From positions 1 to 64,000 of the IMG/VR virus record IMGVR_UViG_3300049215_000529: a DNA stretch of 64,000 nucleotides. One strand, 5' to 3'. The notes under the pieces were generated by a model that did no database searches, had not been told where the DNA came from, and saw only the letters and a list, made by a program, of their open reading frames with translations. Below, one piece after another: positions 3,150-49,104 of this stretch. The DNA comes from a virus. Position 1 is the first letter of the stretch. Every line of letters begins with the position of its first letter. The translations under genes and the position numbers were made by a program.

Positions 3150-4031
3150 TTATTTGTTTTGCTCTCGAAGGTTTTCGTATCGATTGAGGAAATTAAGATA
3201 CAAATTATGTTTCCTTTGTAAATGGATAGTGGCATCTTTATAAAGCCAATCCAAAAAAATTTTGCATTGGTGATAGTTTTTAACTCTAATTTCGCACATA
3301 ATATCAATATCTTGTTTATGTGCTTTAACCAAATAGGATTTGAGCCCCAACTCTTCCTCAAAATAGTTTTTTAGAAAATCATTAACTTGACGGGTGCAAA
3401 TTAATCCTATATTAGGACTATCTCGATTGTTATTAGGTAGATAAATCCAACCATCTCCATCAATTAACCCTCGAATGAAGTGGCGATACATGGATTTGTC
3501 TAGCCATTCTGGGAAAACTATTTTGTACAACTTATTCTCAACAACGCCAAGTGTTGCGAGATGTTGGCTCATATGTTTGCTATAAAGGTTAAGCCACACA
3601 TAGTGGAATGTCTCGCCCTTATCATTCTTACGCACATTATACTTGAGTATCTCTTCACCATAGAAGATGTGCGACATTTTTTTCAGTATTTCTTCATCCC
3701 TCTTCGCTAAATGAATAGATATCCTATTGGTGCGAAATAAATTGTTACCATCCGCATAAATAAAACCTAGGATATACGCCTTCTCTTCAGTATCGATGAT
3801 ATCGAAGTAATGCTCGTTGAGATTGTATTTGCGAGTATAAGAAAATCCCCTCCTAGACTCAACGTGGTTATTCTTAAATAACCTGGTTAGTGCTTTACGG
3901 TGAATATCGAGTTGCTGTCCAATTTTTGTCATAGACACGCCTTCCTGATAGAGACGATTAATCTCGTCAATTTTGGCGTCAATGAGAACATTATTCTTGG
4001 TGTTTCGTTGTTTGATGGATGTTAGGCTCAT
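3150..4031 (-). CDS. LAGLIDADG homing endonuclease with N-terminal HTH
   Basis: Free-standing LAGLIDADG endonuclease with both motif copies, AYILGFIYADG and FIRGLIDGDGW, so it can act as a monomer. The N-terminus (EINRLYQEGVSMTKIGQQLD, then HRKALTRLF) is a helix-turn-helix of the resolvase type that probably helps DNA recognition. I start it at ATG 4031 (MSLTSIKQ); the longer reading from TTG 4073 has no better ribosome site. It lies between the capsid gene terminator and the RelA-like gene. The start codon is inside the loop of a 10-bp inverted repeat (4003-4012 / 4069-4078). Confidence 0.85.
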   Translation of the reverse strand: MSLTSIKQRNTKNNVLIDAKIDEINRLYQEGVSMTKIGQQLDIHRKALTRLFKNNHVESRRGFSYTRKYNLNEHYFDIIDTEEKAYILGFIYADGNNLFRTNRISIHLAKRDEEILKKMSHIFYGEEILKYNVRKNDKGETFHYVWLNLYSKHMSQHLATLGVVENKLYKIVFPEWLDKSMYRHFIRGLIDGDGWIYLPNNNRDSPNIGLICTRQVNDFLKNYFEEELGLKSYLVKAHKQDIDIMCEIRVKNYHQCKIFLDWLYKDATIHLQRKHNLYLNFLNRYENLREQNK

Positions 4032-4078
4032 AATTATAGTCCAGATTATGCATATACACCTGCTATATAACAACGAAA
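4003..4078 (-). repeat. 10-bp inverted repeat bracketing the LAGLIDADG start codon
   Basis: Perfect arms TTTCGTTGTT (4003-4012) and AACAACGAAA (4069-4078) enclose a 56-nt loop with the start codon of the LAGLIDADG gene at 4029-4031. The outer arm overlaps the capsid terminator stem. In RNA read through from the capsid unit this could fold over the initiation region; in transcripts started inside the loop it could not. Confidence 0.55.
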
Positions 4079-4102
4079 AAGCTACCTTTCGGTAGCTTTT
4101 TC
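4075..4102 (-). terminator. Rho-independent terminator after the capsid gene
   Basis: Perfect 12-bp stem GAAAAAGCTACC / GGTAGCTTTTTC with a 4-nt TTTC loop (plus strand), U-rich on its 3' side in either direction. It lies 44 nt beyond the capsid stop and before the LAGLIDADG gene, so it should end most capsid transcripts. A second small hairpin (AGTTAG / CTAACT, 4110-4127) stands between it and the stop codon. Confidence 0.85.
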
Positions 4103-26433: not shown

Positions 26434-28296
26434 TTAAAACTTACGAGGCATATACCCGCTAGCTACAAGTGGTTTTTTGATTTGTTGATAGTTTTGTTGC
26501 TGAAGAATTGGATTATTATTGCTAAATCCGTTTGTTATTAGGAATTTATAAGCAATGTATGCATTCAATAATGCCATAAAACCATCGTTTGGAGTACTTC
26601 CTTTAACATAATGAACACTTGGATCTCCGCCCCTTGAAATTGCTGGTTTAATCTCCATACTAGTACAATGCTCAATTAACCAAGCTACTTTTTCATAATC
26701 TCCAAATGGAAATCTAATCATTCCCTTTTTCATTTGTTCATATAATTCACCAATATAATAATCTCTTTCAAAAACTATTTCTTTTGGAAATGCCTCTTCA
26801 GTATACTTAACGTGACCATTAACTCTATTATGAGCGCGAGAAACTAGATAGCGGTCGCCATAGGTATTATGTAAAATTGCAGAAAAGTCATTAGAGTAAC
26901 CAATATCTCCTACTGCCAACTGAATGCTGTACTGCCTCATAATCTGATCGATGATTCCCTTTTTACTTTCCAAATCATTACGCCTAAACTTAGTTGCAAA
27001 CTCAATAGATAGTAGTCCAGGACCAGATACCTGCAAAACTACGGCAGTACTGTAAGATTGTCCTACAGCTTTAACTTTATCTGGATTAGCTAGTTGTTCC
27101 AAGTCGGAACGTGCGCCATAGTCTATTCCAACGACGATGATATTATCTTGAGACTTCTCAATGCGGGCGGAAAATTTTCTACCAACATCAGCACATTTAT
27201 CTCTAATTTCTTCTGGAGTAATAGGGCTAGAATCTCCCTGAAAGAACTCACCCAACACTTCGTTTTGAAATACGCGTTCAGTATTGATTGGATGAACGCC
27301 AGGCATTTCATTCAAGATATCTTCTTTACTGAACATAGGCATGTAAAGCTGGTTTATATGAAACCCAATCATTAAACAATCTTCATCGTCAGAATTCTTA
27401 AGAGCAACCCACTTACCGCGCTCGGCAGCTTCGCGCTTATCTTGTTCATGTCCACAGTGAGTGCATTTGACGACGAAGCCATGCAACCAAATTTTCTGCC
27501 AATCATCAGAGCCAGGAGTATAAAGTGGGAAATGCTCTTTACATTGCTCACAGCCTAAGTAATAATACTGTTGGGAAGATGTTTGCCACATCTTGTAGAA
27601 ATCGGAACCCTTACGACGTGGCGTTCCAAAATACACCTGCACACCCTTAGATGGCTTACCATACTTAGCAGTGGTAAGAACTTTGAGGGAGTTACCGATT
27701 GCCATTCCAGTAGTCTTCTGAACTTCGTCAAAGAAAATAACGTCAGCAGTACGACCCATGATGCGGTCGCCGTCAAGTCCAACCGATTCTACCCACAAAT
27801 GGTTGCCGCCAACAAATTGCTTGAAGTGCAAAGAGTCGCTAGTAGCCGTAGATTGATCTAGTAGAACCTGCATACAAGACTTGGCTTTACCAGTCTTCTT
27901 CTCTTGACCAACAGCAGGAACAGCAGTAACGATGATTTGATTAAGTTTAGTTTTAGAGTAAGCGGCAGCCAATTCTAATTGAGGAAAGGCATGGATAACT
28001 CTAATTGGAGGTTTCTCGCCAATACCAAAAATTCCTGAGCCCATGAAATACATTTCAAGGGCGCTTGCCATAGTAGTAGCTCCGACCTGACGACCTTTAA
28101 CCATGATAACTGGCTTGGCGTTAGGCTCTAAAGCTTTAATTCCAATGTAACGATAAATGTCGGCAAAAGGTCGATAGCCATTGCCCTCTAATCTAAATGG
28201 TTTACCATCTAATGTTAAATTGAGCTGGCAAAATGTTACTGGGTCAAGACTGAGAAGTTGTTTCTTAAGTTTTTCAAAAAGCTCTTTATCGTCCAT
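26434..28296 (-). CDS. terL: Terminase large subunit
   Basis: 620 aa. ATPase domain: KGRQVGATT (Walker A, residues 67-75) and DVIFFDEVQ (Walker B with catalytic Glu) near 185-195, then the YFGTPRRKG coupling motif. A zinc-ribbon-like insertion (CEQCKEHFP...CTHCGHEQ) recalls lambda GpA-type enzymes. The nuclease domain begins with VVGIDYGARSD (first Asp of the RNase H-like site), followed by VGDIGYSNDF. It packages DNA into the prohead through the portal encoded next. The start codon is in one arm of a 15-bp palindrome shared with the divergent HNH gene, and no ribosome site is visible. Confidence 0.9.
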   Translation of the reverse strand: MDDKELFEKLKKQLLSLDPVTFCQLNLTLDGKPFRLEGNGYRPFADIYRYIGIKALEPNAKPVIMVKGRQVGATTMASALEMYFMGSGIFGIGEKPPIRVIHAFPQLELAAAYSKTKLNQIIVTAVPAVGQEKKTGKAKSCMQVLLDQSTATSDSLHFKQFVGGNHLWVESVGLDGDRIMGRTADVIFFDEVQKTTGMAIGNSLKVLTTAKYGKPSKGVQVYFGTPRRKGSDFYKMWQTSSQQYYYLGCEQCKEHFPLYTPGSDDWQKIWLHGFVVKCTHCGHEQDKREAAERGKWVALKNSDDEDCLMIGFHINQLYMPMFSKEDILNEMPGVHPINTERVFQNEVLGEFFQGDSSPITPEEIRDKCADVGRKFSARIEKSQDNIIVVGIDYGARSDLEQLANPDKVKAVGQSYSTAVVLQVSGPGLLSIEFATKFRRNDLESKKGIIDQIMRQYSIQLAVGDIGYSNDFSAILHNTYGDRYLVSRAHNRVNGHVKYTEEAFPKEIVFERDYYIGELYEQMKKGMIRFPFGDYEKVAWLIEHCTSMEIKPAISRGGDPSVHYVKGSTPNDGFMALLNAYIAYKFLITNGFSNNNPILQQQNYQQIKKPLVASGYMPRKF

Positions 28297-28324
28297 GGCA
28301 ATATTTCAGAATATTGCCATGGAC
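28291..28324. repeat. 15-bp palindrome containing both start codons of terL and the HNH gene
   Basis: Arms GTCCATGGCAATATT (28291-28305) and AATATTGCCATGGAC (28310-28324) with a TCAG loop, perfect over 15 bp. The terL start (28294-28296, minus) lies in the left arm and the HNH start (28319-28321, plus) in the right arm; both proteins begin with Met-Asp. In either mRNA the start would be in a hairpin. Confidence 0.85.
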
Positions 28325-28852
28325 AAGAAAAAACGTGGACCTTACACCTATGAAGGAAAAGACTGTATACATTGTCTTAGACCTTTAACAAAAGATAACA
28401 CCAGACCAAGTGATATACAACAGGCTAATTATTTATGTATTAGCTGCACTAAAGCTAAAGGTAAACGCAGATATTTTGAAAGAAAAGAGTTAATTAGAGA
28501 GCAGCAAAGAGAATACGATCTTGAAAATAAAAGAAAGGTCATAGAAGCTTATGGTAGCATGTGCACTTGTTGTGGCGAAACTATTTTAGAATTTTTAACA
28601 ATTGATCACACTCATAATGATGGGGCGGAAGATAGAAAAAAGAATGGAAAGAAAACGGGCGGCAAACTTTATCGTTGGCTAATTCAAAATAATTTTCCTA
28701 AAGATAAATACCAATTGCTTTGTTTTAATTGCAATTGTGCAAAAGGTTTCTTTGGATATTGTCCACATAAGAAGCCAGAAGTTATTATTAGAGTAACTAG
28801 GAAGAAGATTAATCCTTCACTGGGGTCAGAGCGTGAAACGCATCAGTATTAG
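28319..28852 (+). CDS. HNH homing endonuclease (plus strand)
   Basis: About 177 aa from ATG 28319 (MDKKKRGPY); an upstream in-frame ATG at 28295 (MAIFQNIA) is in the other arm of the palindrome. A Cys pair (CIHC...CISC) precedes the HNH core: CTCCGETILEFLTIDHTHND with the catalytic His, then KLYRWLIQNNFPKDKYQLLC and FNCNCAKG, ending CPHKK. Cys-rich HNH enzymes of this kind are common mobile genes in phages. It is inserted antisense between terL and its upstream neighbour, and its 3' end overlaps the end of that gene by 44 nt. Confidence 0.85.
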   Translation: MDKKKRGPYTYEGKDCIHCLRPLTKDNTRPSDIQQANYLCISCTKAKGKRRYFERKELIREQQREYDLENKRKVIEAYGSMCTCCGETILEFLTIDHTHNDGAEDRKKNGKKTGGKLYRWLIQNNFPKDKYQLLCFNCNCAKGFFGYCPHKKPEVIIRVTRKKINPSLGSERETHQY

Positions 28853-29462
28853 ATGGGTCAATCTCTGTATCAGATCCAGTATCACGAGAGCCTAAGTTAC
28901 TGTAGCTTTCATAACTTGCTGGGTTGTTCTTCTTAGCCTCTAAATTCATCTTACTAACCAATCTAATTAAATTATCGTCGTCCCAATCCTTGGCATCAGA
29001 GACGTCAGATTTGTGAATGGATCTGATTTTCTCAATGATTGCTGGAACTGGTAAATTGCCCTTGCTGTCTCTAATATAGTTCTCTAAAGTTTTGTGAATC
29101 TGTGGCATCTTCTTGAGAACGATTGGAATCATGTCAACTTTCTTTTCCATAGCATCATTTTGATCCGATGCTACTTTAGTTTTGACAGATACATTCTCAT
29201 CAGCAGATTGCTTGATTTTGTCTAGATAAGCAGACAATCCACTTCTTTCCTTCATATCTTCTACTGCTGCCTCTACAGAAGGATACTTTGATTTTCCATT
29301 CATGATGGAATTAATTTGATCAAACAAAGAGTTCTCAATAGTGCGAGGTTGTACAGCACCCTTCTCCAACTTTCTTTGAAATTGGCGAAGCCAGTGATCC
29401 TCATCAATGCTGGAATCAGCCTCTCTCGAAACTACTGGTTGGTGTCTGGTATACTTGGACAT
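28809..29462 (-). CDS. Hypothetical virion-block protein (about 217 aa)
   Basis: Started at ATG 29462 (MSKYTRHQ), which overlaps the upstream stop and has GAGAAGAAA before it. Helical and charged, with residues VEAAVEDMKERSGLSAYLDK forming a short recognisable pattern also typical of small phage modules, a central NYIRDSKGNLPVPAIIEKI and an acidic/polar C-terminus. Immediately upstream of terL before the HNH insertion, where a small terminase subunit is often encoded, but no DNA-binding HTH is evident. Function open. Confidence 0.6.
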   Translation of the reverse strand: MSKYTRHQPVVSREADSSIDEDHWLRQFQRKLEKGAVQPRTIENSLFDQINSIMNGKSKYPSVEAAVEDMKERSGLSAYLDKIKQSADENVSVKTKVASDQNDAMEKKVDMIPIVLKKMPQIHKTLENYIRDSKGNLPVPAIIEKIRSIHKSDVSDAKDWDDDNLIRLVSKMNLEAKKNNPASYESYSNLGSRDTGSDTEIDPSNTDAFHALTPVKD

Positions 29463-30406
29463 TATTTCTTCTCGCCCCAAATGTTTGCGCCGTTGTTGTA
29501 ATTAGCTGCCCAATCCATATTGTCGCTATCCTCAACATGCAAATCTTGATCTGGCATGAAGCCTCTGTCTTGACGAACGGCATAACCCATGTCCATCAAA
29601 AGTTGCATTACTTCAGCTTGTTCGCGCTTGTTTAGATTATAGTACTTGACTTGTCTGTCAAACAAATCCTCAATGTCATGACCTGCAGAAACCATTCCGT
29701 TAATACAGACTCGGGCAATTCTTGAAGTCAATAGTGGTGCCACGATGTAGATGCCCTGAACTCCGGTTACCTTTTGTGCTTCTTTAACAATGCCATCAGG
29801 CTCGAACTCGGACTTCTTCTTGCGGCTGGTCTTCTTGTGTTTCTTTACTTTGTCAAGACGATCGTGTAGTCTCTCAATACCATTATCAATGGTGGCTCTG
29901 ACTTTTTCAATTTGGTCTGCATCTAATTCGCCATCCAAATCCAATCTCATTGCCTTGGAAATTTCGTTATCTAGTCTGTCTAGATAAGCGACTGCTCTCT
30001 CAAGTCCTGCGGTATCATAACCGGAATGCTTTGGAACATCATCACAACGTTCTTTAACCCAAGCAATAAAACCTTTGGCGCCTCTAGATTCCCAATCCCA
30101 CTTAGGATCCTTTTTGGATTTCTTAGCATCATTGTCATCGATATTGTCTTTATCGTCTTCGTGAACTTCAATGTGTGGCTCTGGCTCAGGGTCATGGGTG
30201 CCTGGAGGAGCGCCGGGAAGATCTTCAATTACAATAGAAATTTCGCCCGGTTCGCCTACTTCAAGTGGAGACATGGTAGCCTCAGCTGGATGATCTGGAT
30301 GTACCTCGGAAACTTCCAATGGTACCAGTTCCATAGGACTTCCGCCCATTGGCATTCCACCTGATGGGTCAACAACTAGTAATTGTGCTTCTGACTGTAG
30401 TGACAT
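29462..30406 (-). CDS. Hypothetical structural protein (314 aa)
   Basis: 314 aa. The N-terminal 100 residues are Pro/Glu/Asp/Met-rich and disordered, with IDDNDAKKSKKD similar to the N-D-A-R-K units of the Ser/Asp-repeat protein. The middle has coiled-coil-like basic helices (RLHDRLDKVKKHKKTSRKKK), and the C-terminal 100 residues look folded (VKEAQKVTGVQGIYIVAPLL, SRIARVCINGMV). Last residues GANIWGEKK. Coupled to the next gene by overlap. Unknown function. Confidence 0.6.
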   Translation of the reverse strand: MSLQSEAQLLVVDPSGGMPMGGSPMELVPLEVSEVHPDHPAEATMSPLEVGEPGEISIVIEDLPGAPPGTHDPEPEPHIEVHEDDKDNIDDNDAKKSKKDPKWDWESRGAKGFIAWVKERCDDVPKHSGYDTAGLERAVAYLDRLDNEISKAMRLDLDGELDADQIEKVRATIDNGIERLHDRLDKVKKHKKTSRKKKSEFEPDGIVKEAQKVTGVQGIYIVAPLLTSRIARVCINGMVSAGHDIEDLFDRQVKYYNLNKREQAEVMQLLMDMGYAVRQDRGFMPDQDLHVEDSDNMDWAANYNNGANIWGEKK

Positions 30407-38896: not shown

Positions 38897-39337
38897 TTAC
38901 CATTTCTCTTCTCTAGTCTCAGCCATTTTGGCGAGAATTTCCTTGATTTTCTCATCATTTTCGATGATCTTGCGAATTTTCTTACGGGCTCCGCCGTAAA
39001 TCTTCTTACCGTTTTTATAGTCCACGTTACCATTCAAAGACTTGGTAATGGAACTTTGATTAACATTTAACATCTTAGCTATTTCCATTTGGGTATAGCC
39101 ATCCGCATAAAGACGGATTACTTCTCTTTGTCTTGGGGTAAGTAGTGTATCTACCACTCTCCAAAACTCTTTCTTTAGTTGTTCTTCCAGTTCAATGAGG
39201 TTTTCGTTATACTCAAACGGATTTAACCTATTGTAGATACTATCTTCGTTACAAAACGCTTCCATCATGTCATTTGAGCAAACTGTTTCTAACAACACCC
39301 ACTGGTAACGATCTGAACGATTTTGTCTTTTGGTCAT
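38897..39337 (-). CDS. Sigma-region-4 / HTH transcription regulator
   Basis: 146 aa, AGGGG before ATG 39337. Residues about 60-100 hold LLTPRQREVIRLYADGYTQM then EIAKMLNVNQSSITKSLNG, a helix-turn-helix of the sigma-70 region 4 / LuxR type. The N-terminus carries an N-P-F-E-Y motif and acidic residues; a basic C-terminus follows. A region-2 domain is not evident, so it may be a promoter-specific regulator or anti-sigma-like factor, not a full sigma factor. It is placed at the junction of the replication and virion blocks, with its own terminator and promoter-like element, which fits a late-gene switch role. Confidence 0.65.
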   Translation of the reverse strand: MTKRQNRSDRYQWVLLETVCSNDMMEAFCNEDSIYNRLNPFEYNENLIELEEQLKKEFWRVVDTLLTPRQREVIRLYADGYTQMEIAKMLNVNQSSITKSLNGNVDYKNGKKIYGGARKKIRKIIENDEKIKEILAKMAETREEKW

Positions 39338-47765: not shown

Positions 47766-48658
47766 TGTGTTCCTAATTTTTTATGAGACTTTCTGCCTCT
47801 TCTTGGCTTTTCAAAAGTTTTAACAGCTTCCAATTCTTTTTGCGTAGGCTTAAAGGCACCAGTAGCAACAGGTACGGAAGAGTTAAACATGACAGAAGAA
47901 TTAAACATAACAGATTGAGGTTGTACATACAAACTTGGATCTGCTGAGTTTATAGATAAGTTGTTGCCGAGGGCGGCGTTAGTAGAGCCGGTATAGTTGA
48001 GTTGTGGAGTTAAGTCAACACTTCTTGTAACGACGCCATCGGCAACTTGGTCATAAAGTCTTACATGGCTCTCTAGACCAGATTGAAACACTGTATTTGT
48101 CTGTGGTTGCAATGCAACTGACAGGTCTTTCATTAAATCTTGTACTTCGGGAACTTCACCAATTTCAATTGACTCTGCTCCAATCTTTTGTATTTCTTCC
48201 ACTAGTTCTTTTTGGGTAAGATCGTCTGCCTTAGCTACTAGAGCATCTATTGCTTCTTCTGGAGCAACAAACATATTTGGCTTTGGCTTTTCACCATTTG
48301 GCTTTATGAATTGCTTGAAGTGGTTTTGAACATCTTCAGTTTTTGGTTTATTTCTAGAGTAAATTGGCTCTTCTGAAACGCTGTTAAGTTTAAGGGAAAA
48401 ATTTGATAAAATCCAAGAAGCAAAATCTTCAATAGAAGCATCAGTTCCACTCAATTCAACAGTTTTTTTGACAACAAGAGAAATTGCACTATTATTCATC
48501 ATTTGTTTTTCCTCGCGCTCCGCTTCGCGCTCACCTTCAACAATGATGGTACCAGACTCAGTTTGGTAAGCTTTGACTGGTAAAGTGCCAGCCTTAAACC
48601 ATCGATAGGCGGTTAAGTATTTAACACCAGTTTTTTCAGCCCATTCTTTCAATTTCAT
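47762..48658 (-). CDS. HTH (MerR/IS607-resolvase type) protein (298 aa)
   Basis: 298 aa. The first 50 residues, MKLKEWAEKTGVKYLTAYRW then FKAGTLPVKAYQTESGTIIV, form the winged HTH of MerR proteins and of IS607-type serine recombinases, but no recombinase catalytic domain follows. Instead the rest is helical, acidic and low in complexity, with two M-F-N-S-S-V copies near residues 248-261. Probably a DNA-binding regulator or architectural protein. Its ATG lies within the ATGA overlap with the HNH gene just upstream. Confidence 0.6.
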   Translation of the reverse strand: MKLKEWAEKTGVKYLTAYRWFKAGTLPVKAYQTESGTIIVEGEREAEREEKQMMNNSAISLVVKKTVELSGTDASIEDFASWILSNFSLKLNSVSEEPIYSRNKPKTEDVQNHFKQFIKPNGEKPKPNMFVAPEEAIDALVAKADDLTQKELVEEIQKIGAESIEIGEVPEVQDLMKDLSVALQPQTNTVFQSGLESHVRLYDQVADGVVTRSVDLTPQLNYTGSTNAALGNNLSINSADPSLYVQPQSVMFNSSVMFNSSVPVATGAFKPTQKELEAVKTFEKPRRGRKSHKKLGTQ

Positions 48659-49104
48659 AGTACTAACTTTCTATTTTTAAGGGCATTGGCTTTTGCAGAA
48701 ATTGGTCTCAAATTATCTAATGACCAACAAAGACGAAAAGCCTCATCTTCAACAGAAGTAAATAAAAAAGCCCCTTGCGGAATTATATGATCTATTTGCC
48801 AAAACCAAGTAGAAGCATCATTGTCATTCCAATCACTTATTTTATACTTTCCTTGATTTTTCCAATGCATCCAAAATTCAAATTGACTTTCCAAATGATT
48901 TTTTAATGTTCGAGCATCAAAAGGCAAATACTTCCAAATATATGATATTGTATCATATTTAACAGAAAAACGAATTAAATTATGAATTTTACTTTTAAAT
49001 CGTCTTATTTCCCTTGTACACTCCCTACATATATCGCTGTCACCACGAAAAGCGCTGGGGACATTTAGAAAGCCGCAAGTTATGCATCGTTTTGTTTCTT
49101 TCAT
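48655..49104 (-). CDS. HNH endonuclease upstream of the HTH gene (149 aa)
   Basis: 149 aa, TGA stop overlapping the next start (ATGA). N-terminal Cys pairs (CITCGF...CREC), then the HNH core WFWQIDHIIPQGAF with the catalytic His and CWSLDNLRPISAKANALKNR as the N-H half. Typical mobile HNH gene. It is inserted between the polymerase gene and the HTH gene. The start codon lies in the 3' arm of a 9-bp inverted repeat (49098-49119), and no ribosome site is visible. Confidence 0.8.
   Translation of the reverse strand: MKETKRCITCGFLNVPSAFRGDSDICRECTREIRRFKSKIHNLIRFSVKYDTISYIWKYLPFDARTLKNHLESQFEFWMHWKNQGKYKISDWNDNDASTWFWQIDHIIPQGAFLFTSVEDEAFRLCWSLDNLRPISAKANALKNRKLVL

Follow-up and report, generated by a model that had tools for sequence, protein, structure and literature searches.

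Several homing endonuclease genes of the T4 type, namely I-TevI, I-TevII, I-TevIII, SegB and Aeh1 MobE, are controlled by hairpins (PMC2988022). In T4, the ribosome site is sequestered in a hairpin, and a late promoter within or beside this hairpin frees the start in late RNA only; I-TevI also represses its own promoter (PMC2988022). HNH-type homing endonuclease genes are likewise found at the border of terminase genes, a known hot spot, with a patchy distribution among close relatives (PMC10448857). Bidirectional promoters have been defined by divergent starts 7–25 bp apart with a symmetric -10 region in common (PMC10268837); the commonest start-site distance is 18 bp, with 10 and 23 bp also common (PMC12825309). 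WhiA, which is related to LAGLIDADG proteins, provides a precedent for a homing-endonuclease relative as a transcription regulator (PMC3781837). Against the known background of homing endonuclease genes beside terminase (PMC10448857) and of T4 hairpin control and autorepression (PMC2988022), what is new at the locus described here, as far as we can tell, is a single palindrome that spans the start codons of two genes, terL and an HNH gene, keeps its spacing, and moves with the HNH gene. In the open-access literature searched, nothing relevant turned up on HNH and terminase genes that diverge from a common palindrome. The palindrome at this locus is real and conserved, and it is linked to a mobile gene; what is unusual is the combination, the individual parts being ordinary. 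As in the T4-type genes, a mobile endonuclease gene has a hairpin (here a predicted one) over a translation start, and the insertion can push aside the start signals of a neighboring essential gene. Unlike in those genes, one palindrome covers two divergent starts including that of terL, there is no Shine-Dalgarno sequence to hide, and the promoter is a putative one. Unlike the other terminase-adjacent homing genes, the HNH gene diverges from terL, at a constant distance between the two start codons and with one palindrome common to both, and many members of one of its two classes (class B, below) are apparently inactive yet maintained.

The locus lies in a stretch of 64,000 nucleotides (the window), positions 1 to 64,000 of the IMG/VR virus record IMGVR_UViG_3300049215_000529. 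Because this record measures 204 kb and contigs among the relatives reach about 480 kb, the window and its relatives are taken to come from large phages. The gene terL (26434–28296, minus strand) encodes a terminase large subunit with a gpA-type ATPase (phrog_675, E 7e-55; PF05876, E 3.5e-13). The divergent HNH gene (28319–28852, plus strand) encodes an EndoVII-like protein of 177 aa with an intact DH motif (phrog_2633, E 8.5e-8), and its 3′ end is overlapped by 44 nt by ups (28809–29480, minus strand), the gene that stands immediately before terL in HNH-less relatives. Although the program-made list of open reading frames opens the HNH frame at a TTG at 28181, the start was set at the ATG at 28319 because homologues with the same spacing support that codon. 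Both starts fall in a perfect inverted repeat to which no strand is assigned: the left arm, GTCCATGGCAATATT (28291–28305), includes the terL start codon (28296–28294, minus), the right arm, AATATTGCCATGGAC (28310–28324), includes the HNH start codon (28319–28321, plus), and the 4-nt loop TCAG (28306–28309) forms the dyad center. An earlier sequence-only reading had claimed a perfect 15-bp repeat with a 4-nt loop at 28291–28324, ATGs in opposite arms, Met-Asp at the start of both proteins, and no visible ribosome site for either gene; each of these points was confirmed in the sequence and its translations. AGGA/GAGG-type ribosome sites precede most genes of the window, with terL and HNH as exceptions. 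Perfect arms of at least 15 nt around a loop of at most 10 nt occur in the whole window at this one site, and no repeat of this kind arose when the window was simulated 60 times with a first-order Markov model (rough chance expectation about 0.001); together, these results rule out a chance repeat. An element repeated across the genome is also ruled out, given that the full 34-mer has a single copy in the 204,190-base record and that ATATNNCCATG is rare. Elsewhere in the window, an imperfect palindrome (1313–1348) overlies the start of a gene (1334–2569) that is the only other large one on the plus strand and resembles, as judged by eye, a CCA-adding-enzyme-like nucleotidyltransferase.

The HNH protein shares with the T4 endonuclease VII family (PF02945, phrog_2633) an HNH/His-Me core between two CxxC zinc pairs, the DH at 96–97 being flanked by C82/C85 and C135/C138 (alignment A1). 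Unlike T4 endonuclease VII, it has an additional N-terminal Cys4 site and, in a structure model with a pLDDT of 89.5, a long helix, and its score against PF02945 (19.7 bits, E 8e-4) falls under the Pfam cut-off of 23.6. Sequence and fold searches of the PDB with HNH proteins returned weak matches only (best fold E 0.25–0.6), and a search with the single protein matched nothing besides the window's own sequence. A scan of bacterial and archaeal genomes recovered distant HNH relatives only, mostly in metagenome-assembled genomes, and indicated no host. The window holds two further genes of related kinds: a second endonuclease VII/HNH-like gene (48655–49104, minus; phrog_1035), also lacking a clear ribosome site, and a LAGLIDADG-type homing endonuclease gene (3150–4073, minus; PF14528 and phrog_4645), which is adjoined by a terminator-like 12-bp hairpin (4075–4102).

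A terL search of IMG/VR found 103 relatives, and the best 80 were retrieved; together with loci from HNH searches these gave 60 distinct terLs, 59 of which were scored. The HNH gene lies divergently and directly upstream of terL in 29 of these 59 and is absent from that position in another 29, some with a terL 83% identical; in the remaining relative (L052), HNH is present in a different layout. The insertion point is exactly between the ups stop codon and the terL start. This segment measures about 440–550 nt with a class A insertion and 560–730 nt with a class B insertion, as against 5–90 nt in HNH-less relatives, with one exception (L051) where another gene occupies it. The start of the packaging motor gene has in this way been rebuilt by an insertion of roughly 500 bp. 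According to the sequence-only reading, HNH-less relatives with the same full palindrome would make it an unrelated terL element, and the palindrome was found at 0 of the 29 HNH-less loci. One of them (L014) has an unrelated hairpin, ATATTTTATGA..TCATAAAATAT, just before terL and ending at its ATG. A Shine-Dalgarno energy of -4 kcal/mol or better was found at 0 of the 29 HNH-carrying loci vs 8 of the 29 HNH-less loci; among HNH-less phages, a Shine-Dalgarno sequence is frequent where terL follows ups closely, and is missing from many where the gap is longer. Directly past the ups stop, CTTTGCACTTACC occurs in L002, L007, L008, L036, L061, L080 and L157, which include both HNH-carrying and HNH-less phages, and in L002 and L036 it lies within a short palindrome, TAAGTGCTTTGCACTTA. 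In two other relatives the terL match spans about 2,328 nt vs 1,860 (L071, 1038–3365; L072, 454–2781), with an insertion, possibly an intron or intein, inside terL.

The junctions fall into two classes. Class A has the form CATGGNNATATN6ATATNNCCATG, seen in the window, L083, L036, L086, L087, L089 and L062, and the gap between start codons is 22 nt at seven of the eight class A loci on the terL tree and at L062. Two loci that are class A by protein deviate at the junction, one with a 22-nt gap and a weak dyad (L037), the other with a 46-nt gap and a different inverted repeat (L095). A search of all IMG/VR with the class A pattern returned seven terL/HNH junctions and one further match (L090), which lies inside a gene of another phage and was rejected as chance. 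In class B, the gap is 26–27 nt at nearly all loci, computed values of 20 (L140) and 23 (L157) reflecting alternative in-frame ATGs with the conserved spacing still visible. The core of class B junctions reads TATAT, and their terL side is conserved (consensus ACTACTGAATATACCATCATTTTAGT-ATG); the dyad is weak, with 3 of 21 significant, so the full hairpin is not needed in class B. Two genes of the window that have no ribosome site (at 1227 and 3132, minus) start in TACTAATATG, resembling class B junction ends.

The two classes have different histories. Class A is scattered over the terL tree (eight rows, eight changes, at least six of them forced by starred branches) and class B shows 10 changes (every one of 500 label shuffles needed more); these counts deserve moderate trust, given the quick method used. 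Identities of class A HNH proteins and of their terLs are uncorrelated (Mantel p 0.21, eight loci), while those of class B are correlated (rho 0.60), indicating co-inheritance. In L036, a class A HNH protein (72% identical to the window's) and a class A palindrome stand next to a terL 92% identical to that of a class B phage (L157), and it appears that the class A gene and palindrome together took the place of the class B version as one unit. Identity between the two terLs is 40% over codons 1–20, 65% over codons 21–40 and above 90% beyond, which alone is weak evidence because the terL starts of other pairs are also variable. As class A HNH and palindrome are scattered over the terL tree and appear to have been swapped in as a unit in one phage, the palindrome belongs to the mobile cassette; an HNH-independent terL element is ruled out, since it tracks HNH type and not terL lineage. 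It is not a general trait of this HNH family either: no comparable start dyad was found at HNH homologues away from terL, and because the linkage is to class and other HNH insertion sites have none, the palindrome comes with the HNH of this position and orientation.

The co-inheritance of HNH and terL in class B would fit a different idea, that TerL uses the HNH protein as a packaging cofactor and that their common start merely serves to co-express the two; terminase-adjacent HNH proteins can join cos cleavage (the HK97 case, as discussed in PMC10448857). This is very improbable, as the gene is missing from 29 of the 59 scored terL relatives and is therefore not retained wherever the terminase occurs, class A HNH moves between lineages, and most class B members have no catalytic residues.

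Of the three ideas offered in the sequence-only reading, a scar left when HNH entered and rebuilt the terL start is well supported as the origin: the palindrome occurs only with this HNH and follows its type, and comparison of terL 5′ ends with those of HNH-less relatives showed that class A insertions carry an altered N-terminus (MDDKELF-like, as against MP..NIEDKELF-like, a form often seen in class B phages and in some without HNH). The other two ideas, an operator and a hairpin, stand as possible functions that sequence alone does not separate. It is a further step to suppose that the palindrome is a scar only, with a quasi-palindrome made during HNH entry and repair, arms that template switching keeps perfecting, and no function for the symmetry. 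Template switching can create and maintain hairpins and so give covariation in the absence of selection (PMC8794818), the terL 5′ ends differ strongly across insertions, and at three junctions the symmetry reaches into both genes as far as codon 2, which is unnecessary for a promoter or a start codon and looks like template switching. Such a process is harder to square with the fixed 22-nt gap, the CATGG..ATAT..ATAT..CCATG frame kept in seven distant phages, the absence of such a palindrome at other HNH insertion sites and the conservation of the class B gap as well, and we consider a functionless scar doubtful.

Over the seven class A junctions, 93–96% of the cells of a 13-pair stem are paired, and four of the 13 pairs have changed on both sides; the covariation score was reached by 0 of 500 shuffles and was lost when the partner was slid, with the reservation that the sample is seven related sequences and that this shuffle control leaves shared ancestry in. 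Pairing is slightly better when the stem is read as terL RNA, and predicted RNA folds place both start codons in a stem (z -5.6 and -4.9).

The junction is a candidate bidirectional promoter. A TAGAAT-like hexamer lies at -12 to -7 of each class A ATG, with all 14 arms carrying T at -7 and 10 of them A at -11 (counts made by eye from the class A junction comparison). In the window, the candidate -10-like hexamers are CAGAAT toward HNH (28307–28312, plus; -12 to -7 of the HNH ATG), proposed from the seven class A junctions, and a weaker one, TGAAAT, toward terL (28303–28308, minus; -12 to -7 of the terL ATG). Hexamers at this distance from the start codon are what leaderless RNA would call for. 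A distance of 23 bp separates the two ATGs, and would be the start-site spacing if both RNAs began at the ATG. Bidirectional promoters with overlapping -10 elements are likewise pseudo-symmetric (PMC12825309, PMC10268837); in contrast to them, the symmetry here runs past the candidate -10 elements into both coding starts. Against a promoter, the window's terL-side hexamer has no A at -11 and there is no -35 element; a consensus scan gave nothing above chance at the junction, and neither a classical sigma-70 promoter nor a terminator rose above chance in the region. Compared with the T4-type systems, the locus shows presence and absence in close relatives (scattered class A, 29 HNH-less loci), a start-hiding RNA structure by prediction and covariation, and, for a putative promoter, -10-like hexamers at the right distance with a consensus scan that is not above chance. 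The phage encodes a sigma-70 region 4-like protein (146 aa; 38897–39337 of the window, minus), possibly a sigma factor for its own promoters, so a non-standard promoter is possible; a search with PF00562 found no phage multi-subunit RNA polymerase.

Beyond the established position, fixed spacing, HNH-type linkage, mobility, covariation, missing Shine-Dalgarno sequences and predicted hairpin, we infer promoter activity, leaderless starts and a translational lock. The reading that we favor, tentatively and a little short of an even call, is that the palindrome of the mobile HNH cassette is a shared divergent promoter that yields nearly leaderless mRNAs and forms a hairpin that hides both starts in read-through RNA. 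The palindrome would be the 5′ end of a cassette that enters antisense to the operon between ups and terL, and would act as a symmetric divergent promoter with -10-like elements overlapping at the dyad center. Transcription would begin at or next to both ATGs, leaving both mRNAs nearly leaderless, whereas RNA reading through from the upstream operon into terL, or from the terL side into HNH, would include the whole hairpin and lock the start codon in its stem; efficient translation would then come only from RNA initiated within the palindrome. By taking terL off expression from the operon and its Shine-Dalgarno sequence and providing a replacement start, the cassette would make its own loss costly. 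Since antisense insertion separates terL from its operon neighbor, the element is positioned where a replacement start would be needed. One HNH-less phage within a class B clade (L080) has retained, equally far from terL, a sequence resembling that of class B junctions (p 0.003 vs shuffles), as expected if terL needs the element. Counting against the promoter/hairpin model are the weak class B dyad and the long-gap HNH-less loci that also have no Shine-Dalgarno sequence. It had been suggested that the packaging motor came under the control of a mobile gene, and this is plausible because terL loses its Shine-Dalgarno sequence and no longer adjoins the upstream gene. The element, possibly a small start switch that works in two directions and is gated by a hairpin, suggests a route by which a selfish gene could become hard to lose, by capturing the start signals of an essential neighbor.

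A reading compatible with this promoter model is that the palindrome is a dyad operator for the zinc-binding HNH protein, or for its inactive descendants, serving self-repression and terL tuning, much as a regulator acts on a target gene that diverges from it. The divergent layout with a dyad in between would suit such a role, as would the long helix of the HNH model and zinc Cys4 sites that are conserved even in proteins that have lost DH (dN/dS about 0.1–0.3), and there are precedents in I-TevI, which autorepresses its own late promoter (PMC2988022), and in WhiA, which regulates transcription and is a relative of homing endonucleases (PMC3781837). The HNH protein belongs to a different nuclease family from the relatives of WhiA, and a regulatory role for it is a proposal here. 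The class A arms vary while the HNH proteins remain 44–71% identical, which fits base pairing better than a fixed recognition sequence, and the class B dyad is weak; an operator is on balance somewhat unlikely.

Loss of the catalytic motif bears on the role of the protein. Alignments A2 and A4 show no variation at the zinc cysteines, and DH is missing from most class B proteins. Among nine DH-less class B proteins, pairwise dN/dS is 0.08–0.30, and 0.12–0.22 for the closest pairs with usable dS (simple NG86 estimates), which suggests purifying selection and possible domesticated nucleases. Unless the active site is unusual, these proteins seem to be kept for a role other than cutting DNA, and the simplest idea is putative DNA binding at the shared junction. 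It is possible, if on the less probable side, that the HNH family repeatedly invaded the terL start with its own two-way switch and that many large-phage lineages lost the catalytic motif to give a zinc-binding regulator of the terL promoter. Such a history would have turned a homing endonuclease into a regulator of packaging timing, with intermediates persisting in class A, still active and mobile, in class B, co-inherited and for the most part inactive, and in the L080 locus, where HNH is lost and the junction kept. Because related phages have the gene in an active form, have it in an inactive form or have lost it, the path from nuclease to possible regulator is directly testable. The proteins divergent from terL that have no DH and keep the zinc cysteines include those of L163, L023, L151, L152, L150, L155, L157, L159 and L161 as well as other class B members; the class A protein of L086 also has no DH, and the window's HNH retains it.
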